Source: an uncultured Oscillospiraceae bacterium
GTDB lineage: Bacteria > Bacillota > Clostridia > Oscillospirales > Oscillospiraceae
Direction: 5' to 3'
NCBI GenBank assembly: GCA_947631865.1
Contig: CANRNF010000022.1
Location: forward strand, 1 to 38,861
DNA: 38,861 nucleotides
The first letter of the stretch is position 1. Each line of letters opens with the position of its first letter. The position numbers were made by a program, and so were the translations under genes. Under the pieces are notes generated by a model. It saw only the letters and a program-made list of their open reading frames with translations, searched no databases and was not told the DNA's origin. This document shows, in pieces, positions 18,916 through 22,294 of this stretch.

Positions 18916-19519
18916 GCGGATGCGCCTTCGGGGCTATGGCACCGGGGAGTACGAGGAAAAGCGCTCCCGGTTCATCGGGGAGGCGTTCCCCGTGGCCAGC
19001 GAGGATGAGGCCAAGGAATATCTGGCCAAGGTGAAGAAAAAATACCCTGACGCCCGGCACCACTGCTGGGCCTGGGTGATGCCCGACGGGGCGGCCCGCT
19101 GGTCCGACGACGGGGAGCCGGGCGGCACCGCGGGCGGGCCCATGGCGGCGGTGCTGAAGGGCGCGGACCTGTACGGCGCGCTGTGCGTGGTGACCCGGTA
19201 CTTCGGGGGGACCCTCCTGGGCAGCGGCGGCCTGGTCCGGGCCTATTCCAAGGCGGCGACATTGGCCCTGGCGGACGCGGGCACCGAGCCGGACCCGGAG
19301 ATGGCGGAGCTCGCCGTGGCCTGCCCCTGGGACAGCGTGGACCGGGTCCACCGGCTGATCCGGGAGTATGAGGGGGCGCTTTTGGAGAGCGACTATGCCT
19401 CCGACCCGGACCGGGCAAAGCTCACCGTGCGGCTCCTGGCGGATAAGACGGAGACGTTCTCCCGCCGGGTGACGGATGCTACCAACGGACGAGCGGCGGT
19501 AACGCCGTCAGAACGATAA
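18908..19519 (+). CDS. YigZ/IMPACT family protein
   Basis: 203 residues. The N-terminal UPF0029 domain carries the conserved KKKYPDARHHCWAW, DDGEPGGTAGGPM and VTRYFGGTLLGSGGLVRAYS motifs. A C-terminal ferredoxin-like domain (DUF1949) follows. The eukaryotic relative IMPACT regulates GCN2; the bacterial protein binds nucleotides or RNA and its role is unknown. It overlaps hflX by 8 nt and is the last gene of the operon, followed by a hairpin terminator. The last 15 residues are not family-like and vary. Confidence 0.9.
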   Translation: MSERMRLRGYGTGEYEEKRSRFIGEAFPVASEDEAKEYLAKVKKKYPDARHHCWAWVMPDGAARWSDDGEPGGTAGGPMAAVLKGADLYGALCVVTRYFGGTLLGSGGLVRAYSKAATLALADAGTEPDPEMAELAVACPWDSVDRVHRLIREYEGALLESDYASDPDRAKLTVRLLADKTETFSRRVTDATNGRAAVTPSER

Positions 19520-19536
19520 GAAGAGGCTTGGGAATT

Positions 19537-19568
19537 CGTAAAAGTCAGGTTTGATCCCGAAAACGTCA
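19537..19568. repeat. 32-nt direct repeat, left copy
   Basis: Starts CGTAAAAGTCAGGTTTG and ends CCGAAAACGTCA. The second copy at 21150-21181 differs at three adjacent positions. The two copies bracket the RiPP-like island. Confidence 0.75.
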
Positions 19569-19595
19569 GGGCCGGCGCGTTGAAGACGCCGGCCC
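19569..19595 (+). terminator. Terminator after yigZ, with a -35-like loop
   Basis: GGGCCGGCG pairs with CGCCGGCCC around CGTTGAAGA. No strong T-run follows. The loop contains TTGAAG, followed 18 bp later by TAAAAT (19604-19609). Confidence 0.6.
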
Positions 19596-19609
19596 GGCTA
19601 TGTTAAAAT
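19580..19609 (+). promoter_or_regulatory. Possible promoter for the RiPP precursor
   Basis: TTGAAG (19580-19585) in the terminator loop, an 18-bp spacer and TAAAAT (19604-19609). It would give a leader of about 125 nt before 19741. Confidence 0.45.
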
Positions 19610-19740
19610 TAAAAGAGAAAAAGTTTCGCTCCGCGCCGGCCCTTTTGGGCGGATGGGACGTATAAAGAGACGGAACACAAAGTGGAGAGACGGCGCGAAG
19701 CGCGTTTCAAATAGAAAAGTCTGAAAGAGGAGGAGCATCC

Positions 19741-20028
19741 ATGAACGAGGAAATGATCGGGAAGCTGAAAGAGGCGAAGTCTGTGGAGGATGTGATTGCC
19801 ATTGCCAGGGAATACGGCAAAGAGCTGGCCGTGGAGCAGGCCCAGGCCCTGCTGGACCGGGTGAAAGCCGCCGTGACCGGCGAGCTGTCCGACGACGCCC
19901 TGGGCGCTGTCGCCGGGGGCCGGACGATCGGCCATTCCCATAATGATCCCCTTAGAAATCCCCGTGTGGAAATGGGAGGACAAGGAGGACAAACAGTAGA
20001 AGACGCGGCTGACCCCCATAATTGGTGA
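19741..20028 (+). CDS. RiPP precursor with Nif11-like leader
   Basis: 95 residues after a strong AGGAGGAG site. Residues 1-60 are a Nif11-type leader: KEAKSVEDVIAIAREYGKEL, then a helix, ending in ELSDDALGAVAGG with the Gly-Gly cleavage site at 59-60. The 35-residue putative core begins RTIGHSHNDP and ends ADPHNW. It has no Cys, one Ser and two Thr, many His/Asn/Asp/Gly, and a single aromatic residue, the C-terminal Trp95. Such leaders are cut by C39-type peptidase/ABC exporters, but none is encoded in the window. The neighbour is a convergent gene ending at 20077 (48-nt gap) on the other strand. The precursor assignment is well supported; that it is modified, and how, is inference. Confidence 0.8.
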   Translation: MNEEMIGKLKEAKSVEDVIAIAREYGKELAVEQAQALLDRVKAAVTGELSDDALGAVAGGRTIGHSHNDPLRNPRVEMGGQGGQTVEDAADPHNW

Positions 20029-20069
20029 AAAGCGGCGCGGCGCGACTTAGCATCCAACGTATAGAATAA

Positions 20070-20183
20070 GGCCCCCTCAGACGAGGGGGCTGTCGAGCGA
20101 AGCGAGACTGGGGGAGGGAAATGATCTATCTCTCCCTCCGTCTCGCCCTGGCGGGCGAGCCACCTCCCTCGTCCGAGGGAGGC
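20070..20183 (-). repeat. Palindromic intergenic repeat, copy 3 (complete, reversed)
   Basis: Same family as 9328-9442, in the opposite orientation: CCCCCTCAGACGAGGGGGCT at the left and CACCTCCCTCGTCCGAGGGA at the right. The 3-prime end of the gene 20077-21069 is formed by this repeat. Confidence 0.8.
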
Positions 20184-21069
20184 TTTTGGCAAGTTCTTGC
20201 GTTTCCCGATAATAGAAATTCATCGTCAGCCGGTCCCGGTCGTCCAGGGCCAGGGCGACGATCGTGCAGGTAAACCGGGGACGGGCGTCGTCCCAGGCCA
20301 TCAGTTCCCCGAGCTGCTCGTGCAGCAGGGGGTCCAGTTCCTTCCCAAACGCCTCGGCCAGGCCCTGATAGAGGAATATCGGATCGGCGATGTAAATTTT
20401 ATATTTCCGCTCCCCGGTGAGCCAGTAGTCCGTCCCGACCATGAACACATGTCCGCCGCAGCAGCCGAGCACGTCCCGGACCAGGGGGCAGAGGCGCCGA
20501 AAGGCGGGTATGCCGCTTTGCTCCAGATAGGTCAGGAAATAGCCGCTGTCGTAACGGCCCAGCCGCGAGGGCGTGGAGACATCCTTATGCCTGCGGCAGA
20601 GATAGTGGCATTTCAGGGCGGTGACCCGGTCGTCCTCAGAGACGAAGCCCAGAAAGTGCATGCCGGCCAGCGGAAACACCCGCGCATCGCATATGGGCAT
20701 GGCGGCCAGCTTTCGGATCTCGGCCTCCCGCTGGGAGAACACGCCGAAGTGGCCGCCCAGCCAGGAGAAGAGGGCCTCCATATTCTCGCCGGTGCGTCTT
20801 TTGAGGCCGATATCATAGCGGTACCGCCGGCGGCTGCCGGTGTCCTCCGCCAGGGTGAGAAAGTTTATCATATCCCGCTCCCGCAGAAGGTCAATGAGGG
20901 AAGATTGCCGTCCCTCGCTGCGGGCGCTGGTATAGTCATTTTTGTAGTATATCTTGAACAGCGGCTCTTCCCCGCCGATATTGACGCCCAGATAATCCAC
21001 CTGCTGCTGGGCGTAATCCTCGCCGTGCCGGGCCACAAATTCGTCCAGCTTTTCCTGCCAGTCCGCCAT
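20077..21069 (-). CDS. Unrecognised protein of the RiPP island, possibly ABBA-prenyltransferase-like
   Basis: 330 residues, start at 21069 with AAAGG upstream and a consensus promoter at 21101-21129. There is no signal or membrane segment. I do not recognise a family with confidence. Several predicted strands end in a K/N-x-Y pattern: FKIYYKND (Lys39, Tyr41), LKCHYLCRR (Lys153, Tyr156), YKIYIADP (Lys224, Tyr226) and MNFYYRET (Asn284, Tyr286). This recalls the repeated Lys/Tyr pairs lining the barrel of aromatic (ABBA) prenyltransferases, whose length also fits. That is a weak inference. From about residue 296 on (SLPRTREV...) the reading frame is the palindromic repeat, so the original C-terminus was replaced or extended. 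Position beside a Nif11-leader peptide suggests a modifying enzyme. Confidence 0.6.
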   Translation of the reverse strand: MADWQEKLDEFVARHGEDYAQQQVDYLGVNIGGEEPLFKIYYKNDYTSARSEGRQSSLIDLLRERDMINFLTLAEDTGSRRRYRYDIGLKRRTGENMEALFSWLGGHFGVFSQREAEIRKLAAMPICDARVFPLAGMHFLGFVSEDDRVTALKCHYLCRRHKDVSTPSRLGRYDSGYFLTYLEQSGIPAFRRLCPLVRDVLGCCGGHVFMVGTDYWLTGERKYKIYIADPIFLYQGLAEAFGKELDPLLHEQLGELMAWDDARPRFTCTIVALALDDRDRLTMNFYYRETQELAKSLPRTREVARPPGRDGGRDRSFPSPSLASLDSPLV

Positions 21070-21100
21070 GAGAGCACCGCCTTTCCATAGAGCTTATCCT

Positions 21101-21129
21101 ACTTTAAAGTTTGCGGCCCCGTCTGTCAA
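21101..21129 (-). promoter_or_regulatory. Promoter of the RiPP-island enzyme-like gene
   Basis: On the minus strand, TTGACA (21124-21129), a 17-bp spacer and TAAAGT (21101-21106), about 25 nt upstream of the expected ribosome-binding site. Confidence 0.7.
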
Positions 21130-21149
21130 CCGGGCGGGGGCGGCCATCG

Positions 21150-21181
21150 CGTAAAAGTCAGGTTTGGCTCCGAAAACGTCA
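21150..21181. repeat. 32-nt direct repeat, right copy
   Basis: Same orientation as 19537-19568 with three changes in the middle. It marks the right edge of the island just before the dgt leader. Confidence 0.75.
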
Positions 21182-21230
21182 TAAAAATTTTTTCAAACAA
21201 AAAAGGGAAAAAACAAAAATGCGGCGTATA

Positions 21231-21264
21231 GAGGTATTGCAAAGTGATTTTGCGATACCTTTTT
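21231..21264 (+). terminator. Intrinsic terminator in the dgt leader
   Basis: AGGTATTGCAAA pairs over 12 positions (one G-U type) with TTTGCGATACCT, followed by a T-run. It lies only about 20 nt upstream of the dgt ATG, so it either ends upstream transcripts or acts as an attenuator. Confidence 0.7.
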
Positions 21265-21283
21265 ACATATGGGGTAAACGAAC

Positions 21284-22294
21284 ATGTCGGATACGCCCAG
21301 CTTTCGGGAGATACGCCAGCGGCAGGAGGAGCTCATCATCGGGCCCTACGGGACCCTGTCGGTGAACAGCAAGGGCCGGCCCATGCCGGAGCCGGAGGAC
21401 GAGGTGCGCACCTGCTTCCAGCGGGACGTGGACCGGGTGACCCATTCCAAGGCCTTCCGCCGCCTGCGCCACAAGACCCAGGTGTTCCTGCGCCCCGAGG
21501 GGGACCACTACCGGACCCGCCTGACCCACACCCTGGAGGTGGCCCGCATCGCCCGGACCATCGCCCGGGCCCTGGCGCTGAACGAGGACCTGACGGAGGC
21601 CGTCGCCCTGGGCCACGACCTGGGCCATACCCCCTTCGGCCACGCGGGGGAGCGGGCGCTGCGGGACATCACCGGGGGCTTCCACCACTATGAGCAGAGC
21701 CTTCGGGTGGTGGACAAGCTGGAAAAGGACGGCAGGGGTCTGAACCTGTGCCAGGAGACCCGTATGGGCATTTTGAACCACACCACCGGCAAGCCGAAGG
21801 ACACCCTGGAGGCGGACGTGGTGCGCCTGGCGGACCACATCGCCTACCTCAATCACGATTTGGACGACGCGGAACGGGCGGGCATCGTCCAGGCCACGGA
21901 CGTGCCCCTTCTCATCCGCACGAAGATCGGCACCCGCAACTCCCGGCGCATCAACGCCATGGTCACGGACGTGATCCGGTCCAGCGGGGAGGGCGTCGTG
22001 CGGTTTTCCGACGAGATGGATAAGGTCTACACCGCCTTCGAGGAGTTCATGTACCAGGCGGTGTACCACAACCCCACCGCCAAGGGGGAGGAGTCCAAGG
22101 TCAAGGGCATCCTGGCCCCTATCATGGAGTATTACGGCAAGCATCCGGACAAGCTCCCTCTGGAATTCCGGGCTATCGCGGACAGGGAGGGCGTGGCCGT
22201 GGCCGTGACGGACTATGTCTCCGGCATGACCGACAGCTTTGCCATCTACGCCTTTGAGAATCTCTTCATCCCGGCCAGCTGGTCGGTGAAGTAA
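21284..22294 (+). CDS. dgt: Deoxyguanosinetriphosphate triphosphohydrolase-like protein
   Basis: 336 residues. HD-domain metalloenzyme: RLTHTLEVARIAR (His82) and GHDLGHTPFGH (His111-Asp112) give the metal ligands, and the later DHIAYLNHDLDDA supplies the last Asp. The N-terminal RQEELIIGPYGTLSVNSKGR and FQRDVDRVTHSKAFRRLRHKTQV are typical of the dGTPase-like family often found beside dnaG in Clostridia. It probably hydrolyses dNTPs to deoxynucleoside and triphosphate. GGGG lies about 10 nt before the ATG. dnaG follows after 40 nt. Confidence 0.93.
   Translation: MSDTPSFREIRQRQEELIIGPYGTLSVNSKGRPMPEPEDEVRTCFQRDVDRVTHSKAFRRLRHKTQVFLRPEGDHYRTRLTHTLEVARIARTIARALALNEDLTEAVALGHDLGHTPFGHAGERALRDITGGFHHYEQSLRVVDKLEKDGRGLNLCQETRMGILNHTTGKPKDTLEADVVRLADHIAYLNHDLDDAERAGIVQATDVPLLIRTKIGTRNSRRINAMVTDVIRSSGEGVVRFSDEMDKVYTAFEEFMYQAVYHNPTAKGEESKVKGILAPIMEYYGKHPDKLPLEFRAIADREGVAVAVTDYVSGMTDSFAIYAFENLFIPASWSVK

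Follow-up and report, generated by a model that had tools for sequence, protein, structure and literature searches.

A sequence-orphan family with a predicted ABBA prenyltransferase fold recurs beside Nif11-leader precursor genes in a genus of Oscillospiraceae

The combination of a Nif11 leader with an ABBA (alpha-beta-beta-alpha) prenyltransferase is already known from cyanobacterial lanthipeptides. In Moorena, geranylation of Trp82 in the Nif11-leader precursor MppE by MppC requires the leader, and MppC prefers a core that has been cyclised by the lanthionine synthetase MppM, according to the available text of that report (PMC12715784). Here we describe a gene pair of similar composition in an uncultured Oscillospiraceae bacterium (assembly GCA_947631865.1, contig CANRNF010000022.1, 38,861 nucleotides; the whole stretch is referred to as the window). 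A precursor peptide with a Nif11-type leader is encoded there convergently with a protein predicted to adopt the ABBA fold, which probably prenylates the neighbouring precursor, most likely on a Trp residue. As with MppC and MppE, an ABBA-type enzyme is clustered with a Nif11-leader precursor, and the core Trp, the acceptor in MppE, is the likely acceptor in the window pair. MppE is cyclised by MppM, whereas the window core is free of Cys and no lanthionine synthetase was found among the neighbours of the pair between 14.0 and 25.4 kb, the span covered by gene annotation, the rest of the window and genome not having been searched for synthetases. Within that span the locus thus lacks the synthetase, and its core the Cys that accompanies Ser or Thr, of a prenylated lanthipeptide of the MppE type. 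A further difference from MppC is that no prenyltransferase model matches the window enzyme in sequence.

Three other systems bear comparison, each as described in the portions of the sources available. NctPC joins an ABBA prenyltransferase to a terpene cyclase and attaches a C20 group to Trp (PMC13290415); it shares a barrel fold with the window enzyme (predicted in the latter) and low similarity to the cyanobactin enzymes, but it has a cyclase domain and the window enzyme is single-domain. The cyanobactin F family (LimF, PagF, PatF) resembles the window enzyme in predicted fold and in size, about 290–300 residues. However, these enzymes act after leader removal (PMC12715784) and show no sequence match to it. 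In Bacillus, ComX is likewise a Firmicute peptide, prenylated on a Trp near its C-terminus and linked to a two-component system, but ComQ resembles farnesyl and geranylgeranyl diphosphate synthases and not ABBA enzymes (PMC5331326). In the window module, signalling is only suggested, by the shared repeats described below. To our knowledge, ComX has no Nif11 leader. The peptide-prenylating ABBA enzymes in the literature examined, as far as its available text goes, are cyanobacterial, with lasso peptide prenylation also mentioned. Among the literature matches listed, which lacked most subscription papers and preprints, none described an ABBA prenyltransferase next to a Nif11 precursor in Bacillota.

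Structure prediction was applied to enzyme residues 1–290 together with four relatives. AlphaFold2 returned a predicted local distance difference test score (pLDDT) of 74.3 (five models, 45 to 74) and a predicted template modelling score (pTM) of 0.78; a 77%-identical paralogue gave 78.3 (models 50 to 78) and 0.81. Both models have ten strands in five hairpins, with helices between them. When compared with the PDB by Foldseek, the first model matched ABBA/DMATS-type prenyltransferases in 49 of the 50 listed chains (best E-value 1.8e-6), the exception being the copper transporter PcoB with a probability of 0.82, and the second matched such enzymes in all 50 (best E-value 8.5e-6). Chains at E <= 0.001 numbered 53 and 52, of which the best 50 of each were classified; many are copies, with about 12 and about 15 distinct enzymes among the matches listed. 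The peptide-acting LimF was listed for both models, PagF and PatF for the second. We take the ABBA/DMATS matches, whose titles name prenyltransferases or tryptophan synthases of that type, to share a single fold. A sequence-only reading of this DNA had guessed at an ABBA-type prenyltransferase and had named a confident match to an unrelated fold as evidence to the contrary; the listed matches support the guess, and no such match was seen with either model. We judge the fold assignment to be reliable but not the details of the models; the enzyme is predicted to be a ten-stranded ABBA barrel (PT-barrel) of five alpha-beta-beta-alpha units.

Basic/tyrosine pairs are invariant in all ten aligned family members, on the second strand of each predicted hairpin: K39-Y41-Y42, R82-R84-Y85, K153-H155-Y156, K222-K224-Y226 and N284-Y286-Y287. 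The strand endings of the form K/N-x-Y that the sequence-only reading had picked out correspond to these pairs, and the pattern is presumably akin to the diphosphate clamp in ABBA enzymes already known.

Sequence searches did not reveal the class of the enzyme. The window enzyme alone had no credible match in Pfam, NCBIfam or PDB sequences; it had earlier been described as matching none of the usual enzymes of ribosomally synthesized and post-translationally modified peptides (RiPPs). For the ten-member family, no prenyltransferase model appeared among Pfam and NCBIfam matches up to E 10, and a family profile searched against PDB sequences found no prenyltransferase. Wider scans used genome sets sampled from larger groups. 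A match was found in 4 of 400 genomes of the taxonomic family, its own included, all of the same genus. The matches in 394 genomes of the order were its own genome and a single partial hit (E 0.008), and the 391 of the class gave these two and one further partial match (E 0.004), with nothing convincing outside the genus in either set. Viral contigs, plasmids and phages held no convincing homologue.

Within the genus, the enzyme is tied to Nif11 precursors. Of the 35 genomes sampled, 13 have low contamination and a completeness of 90% or more. Six yielded the enzyme and eight yielded Nif11 precursors of this kind: all six enzyme-bearing genomes (2 to 8 matches each) and two of the 29 enzyme-free ones (G358 and G412, one match each; Fisher p = 1.7e-5, shared ancestry ignored). 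The pair is thus present in five genomes of the genus besides that of the window, and the distance to a Nif11 core is at most about 350 bp for all ten full-length enzymes and for two broken or partial ones. Homologues that consistently lack a nearby Nif11 gene, which had been put forward as a counter-indication, were not seen. Layouts differ: the genes converge in the window and at L041, L042, L050 (twice), L051 and L052, and lie on the same strand with the precursor first at L044, L045 and L046. The site between a yigZ-like gene and dgt holds the pair in the window, L042, L050 and L051; L052 shows neither gene, and the gene map gives different neighbours for L041, L044, L045 and L046. These sequences associate a putative modifying enzyme with a Nif11 precursor; the modification itself we infer. 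The broken or partial enzyme copies, also beside Nif11 genes, lie at L043 (868–1757) and L046 (6638–7021) and suggest turnover of the module.

The window precursor narrowly passes the Pfam Nif11 model (PF07862; 24.1 bits against a gathering threshold of 23.8, E 4.5e-5). It falls under the cut-off of the NCBIfam leader model TIGR03798 (25.1 against 32.3 bits), which two of its paralogues, encoded on contig C3 of that genome, exceed. The leader ends in a GG-type cleavage site, AVAGG, as in Nif11-leader RiPP precursors, and the description of a 95-residue precursor with a Nif11-type leader and GG site holds. The core has no Cys, and its final residue, Trp, is the only aromatic one besides His; Thr, Ser, His and Arg are also present.

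Core type follows enzyme clade. Each enzyme was assigned the core of its nearest precursor (clades I and II) or of the directly upstream one (clade III), and the grouping was made post hoc. Clade I enzymes (window, first copy of L050, L051 and L052; 83–89% alike) go with a long core ending TVEDAADP(H/Q)NW in 4 of 4 cases. Clade II enzymes (L041, L042 and second copy of L050; 93–96%) accompany short cores with an EW motif (3/3), and clade III enzymes (L044–L046; 89–97%) accompany cores that contain a WI motif and end in FGK (3/3). Identity between clade III and the other enzymes falls to 45–49%. Trp is present in all 14 enzyme-adjacent cores (12 distinct), where 1.6 would be expected at 0.51% Trp, and Trp and Gly are the only residues common to the 14. 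This count includes L045 6308–6418, which has a partial leader, and the L042, L044 and L045 cores despite their out-of-frame leaders; it leaves out L043 1636–1863 (no GG-core) and L041 12105–12548 and L122 2648–2863 (other core or leader types).

The enzyme is probably shorter than its reading frame. Both open reading frames (ORFs) were confirmed where they had been placed, convergent, with 95 codons on the forward and 330 on the reverse strand. Searched against its own genome (G000), the enzyme gave 16 matches: itself, one paralogue (48% identity over residues 2–290) and 14 short matches restricted to residues ~283–330, on contigs C35, C7, C42 and others. Clade I and II relatives (n = 6) terminate at YYRET or YYLET, and clade III relatives (n = 3) 10–17 residues past YY. 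In G216 and G294 the similarity continues past a stop codon, so the repeat follows the enzyme gene there too. Because of the short genome matches and the ends of the relatives, the last 40 residues of the window ORF are taken to be read from a dispersed repeat, and the native enzyme probably has about 290 residues (Table 1) and not the 330 first reported.

Table 1. Features of the gene pair and its flanks (window positions).
Feature	Position	Strand	Basis or remark
31-bp direct repeat, left copy	19538..19568	+	operator-like site upstream of precursor
Promoter-like site of precursor, TTGAAG, 18 nt, TG TAAAAT	19580..19609	+	consensus scan 9/12; by itself no evidence of function
Nif11-leader precursor peptide, 95 aa; leader is residues 1–60, ending AVAGG	19741..20028	+	PF07862 over cut-off; homologues beside every enzyme examined
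Core peptide, residues 61–95; single Trp is the last residue; ends TVEDAADP(H/Q)NW	19921..20025	+	alignment
Enzyme ORF as first given, 330 aa	20077..21069	-	ORF list
Family-conserved enzyme, residues 1–290, predicted ABBA prenyltransferase fold	20200..21069	-	AlphaFold2 and Foldseek
C-terminal tail, residues 291–330, from dispersed genomic repeat; probably outside native enzyme	20077..20199	-	genome matches, relatives' reading frames
Sigma-70-like promoter of enzyme gene, TTGACA, 17 nt, TAAAGT	21101..21129	-	consensus scan 10/12
31-bp direct repeat, right copy, ~83 bp upstream of enzyme start codon, ~100 bp before dgt	21151..21181	+	junction of island with dgt upstream region

Several further observations concern the Nif11 genes of the genus. 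In L042 (~10380), L044 (~6215) and L045 (~5140), and perhaps in L123, a poly-G run early in the leader is out of frame; the same run is in frame in relatives at L041, L050 and L051. Either phase variation or sequencing error would account for the out-of-frame runs. A nearly identical core (GMDWGYVDEQIKK..) follows two different Nif11 leaders at L117 4103–4363 and L041 11812–12081, as if leaders and cores had been swapped. Arrays of small proteins adjoin Nif11 genes at L047 10078–13000, L048 3454–6509 and L052 12678–13223. They share a second leader-like start, ENKKSxEELADEALDKVAGG, several have CxxC motifs, and they may represent a further precursor family.

The window pair forms an island between the yigZ-like gene (UPF0029) and dgt, in surroundings that otherwise contain dnaE, hflX, dnaG and rpoD; an Rfam search of 19500–21300 gave no match. 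The host had been called Clostridium-like, whereas its near relatives are titled Oscillospiraceae, not Clostridium. A dedicated exporter with a C39 peptidase domain is present in the window's genome, though not beside the pair: a C39 transporter is encoded on contig C3 with three Nif11 genes, a LytTR response regulator and a GHKL histidine kinase. Among 12 genomes tested, six gave a C39 domain: four of the six enzyme-bearing ones, both Nif11-only ones and none of the four with neither. In G406, an exporter pair about 13 kb from an enzyme gene on the same contig exceeds the cut-offs of TIGR03796 (952 against 853 bits) and TIGR03797 (731 against 709), the models of the NHLP-family bacteriocin exporter pair. 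The description of the island as a minimal two-gene system is correct locally, but the exporter and LytTR regulator are encoded elsewhere in the genome.

The island is bounded by two copies of a 31-bp direct repeat, GTAAAAGTCAGGTTTGNNNCCGAAAACGTCA; none was obtained in 100 shuffles. Related sites were counted in 11 of the 35 genomes: 8, 12, 13, 5, 9 and 5 in the enzyme-bearing ones (n = 6) and 2, 0, 0, 0 and 0 in five others, with two overlapping pairs counted twice and a control pattern giving 1 in all. Each site consists of half-sites 21 bp apart, about two helical turns, and L134 and L135 have three in a row. In the stretches covered, genes beside the sites were listed downstream in the site's own direction, and both orientations were tested only for Nif11 genes and enzymes. 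A site lies within 450 bp upstream of 9 of the 33 Nif11 rows scanned, in forward orientation in all nine and reverse in none, at 158–192 bp in seven; the other 24 have no site within that distance. Sites also precede response regulator genes with similar N-termini at seven loci (L047, L119, L124, L127, L129–L131), the LytTR domain being confirmed in the L047 regulator, the one tested. They are further found before dgt in four loci, a few transporter genes, M13 peptidase genes and some unrecognised genes, and unrelated or unrecognised genes follow several sites (L121, L123, L133, L136). The M13 (PepO-like) peptidases with an upstream site look secreted (L047 4277–6295, L048 10690–12753, L129, L130); the family was tested for the L047 copy and the other three were assigned by likeness.

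Six of the ten enzyme start codons have a site 83–93 bp before them in the opposite orientation, and none was found upstream of the three clade III enzymes or the L041 enzyme. By inspection, a promoter-like site, TTGACA-17-TAA(A/G)(A/G)T, precedes all seven clade I and II enzymes. AgrA binds paired direct repeats centred near -60 in the available text of PMC4227749. In the window, the repeat centre lies about 60 bp before the putative transcript start of the precursor, by arithmetic from the promoter-like site. The distribution of the 31-bp repeats suggests a LytTR regulon and hence signalling. A recombination or integration site was considered as well, since the repeats bound the island and the yigZ-dgt site is empty in enzyme-free genomes: of ten such genomes in which dgt was found, five show the yigZ-like gene ~0.1–0.35 kb from dgt without the island (L137–L141), that is, all five with both genes on the stretch fetched, and the remaining five have no yigZ on it. 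An operator is the reading preferred, as the sites precede genes for Nif11 peptides, response regulators and M13 peptidases and each comprises two half-sites with a 21-bp period.

Taken together, the data are consistent with the following scheme, in which the fold is predicted and we infer prenyl transfer, the Trp acceptor, leader recognition, processing and LytTR binding. The pair would form a RiPP module in which the Nif11 leader is the handle by which the ABBA-fold prenyltransferase holds the precursor. The donor would be an allylic diphosphate, and the prenyl group would be transferred to one of the core's aromatic side chains, Trp being the most likely; in the window this Trp is C-terminal. 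Export would follow through an NHLP-type ABC transporter with a C39 peptidase domain, whose gene lies at another place in the genome and which would cut the leader off behind AVAGG. A LytTR response regulator probably controls expression through the 31-bp repeats. The peptide-prenylating system proposed by the sequence-only reading is supported in its fold and its Nif11 partnership, and its catalysis stays conditional.

Several results weigh against Trp prenylation by this enzyme. Sequence profiles link it to no known prenyltransferase. The TM-scores of the prenyltransferase matches, by query length, range from 0.30 to 0.58 with root-mean-square deviations of 6.2–12.8 Å, and the two AlphaFold2 models use the same five sequences (71–89% identity to the first row) and are not independent. 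The Trp background of 0.51% is low, coming from five housekeeping genes of the window. Trp is also present in 13 of 16 Nif11 cores that are not beside an enzyme, and for this reason Trp as a mark of enzyme substrates was dropped. L045, L046 and L051 carry an additional precursor or core of other sequence beside the enzyme, and the poly-G run is out of frame in the precursor leaders of L042, L044 and L045. With respect to export, two genomes with the enzyme, G327 (93% complete) and G416 (78% complete), gave no C39 exporter, and the domain itself is widespread, occurring in 8 of 14 control genomes.

The alternative that survives best keeps an ABBA barrel that uses an isoprenoid diphosphate and assigns it a different acceptor, either a small molecule or a non-Trp residue, with the Nif11 peptide carried along or modified elsewhere. 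Most of the listed Foldseek matches are indeed small-molecule aromatic prenyltransferases, and the window core also offers Thr, Ser, His and Arg. We nevertheless consider this unlikely: every enzyme examined lies beside a Nif11 gene, the clades track core type, and Trp and Gly are the sole residues present in all 14 adjacent cores. More improbable still is a barrel of the same topology that binds the leader and is not a prenyltransferase, whether a carrier, an immunity protein or a new modifying enzyme. Immunity genes commonly adjoin bacteriocin genes, and this explanation would sit well with shallow models, TM-scores of about 0.5 and the absence of a sequence profile match; it fits poorly with listed fold matches that are almost all of one enzyme class and with barrel-strand basic/tyrosine pairs that are invariant, as a diphosphate site would require. 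That a Nif11 paralogue and an unrelated gene are neighbours by chance, as convergent genes with separate promoter-like sites in the window might be, is very unlikely because the pair recurs in six genomes, at several genomic sites and in both convergent and co-directional layouts, with a phyletic match of enzyme and Nif11.

Prenylation of the neighbouring precursor is thus the reading we prefer. What is new here, relative to the cyanobacterial systems, is a sequence-orphan enzyme family, a Cys-free window core, a clostridial host, no synthetase among the neighbours examined, enzyme-core pairs across the genus and shared repeats. It is tentatively possible that the whole constitutes a gut-clostridial signalling or bacteriocin system, in which a Nif11 peptide prenylated on Trp by a new ABBA sequence family would undergo NHLP-type export under AgrA-like LytTR two-component control, perhaps with sensing, as a counterpart of ComX built from unrelated enzymes. 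The three enzyme clades with their different cores are natural enzyme-substrate pairs for testing acceptor choice, and the shared repeats make prenylated-peptide signalling in the group testable. The enzyme family was missed by the Pfam and NCBIfam models searched. If the proposed activity is true, the range of RiPP lipidation would be broader than now known and include a leader-guided, stand-alone, sequence-orphan family of gut clostridia.

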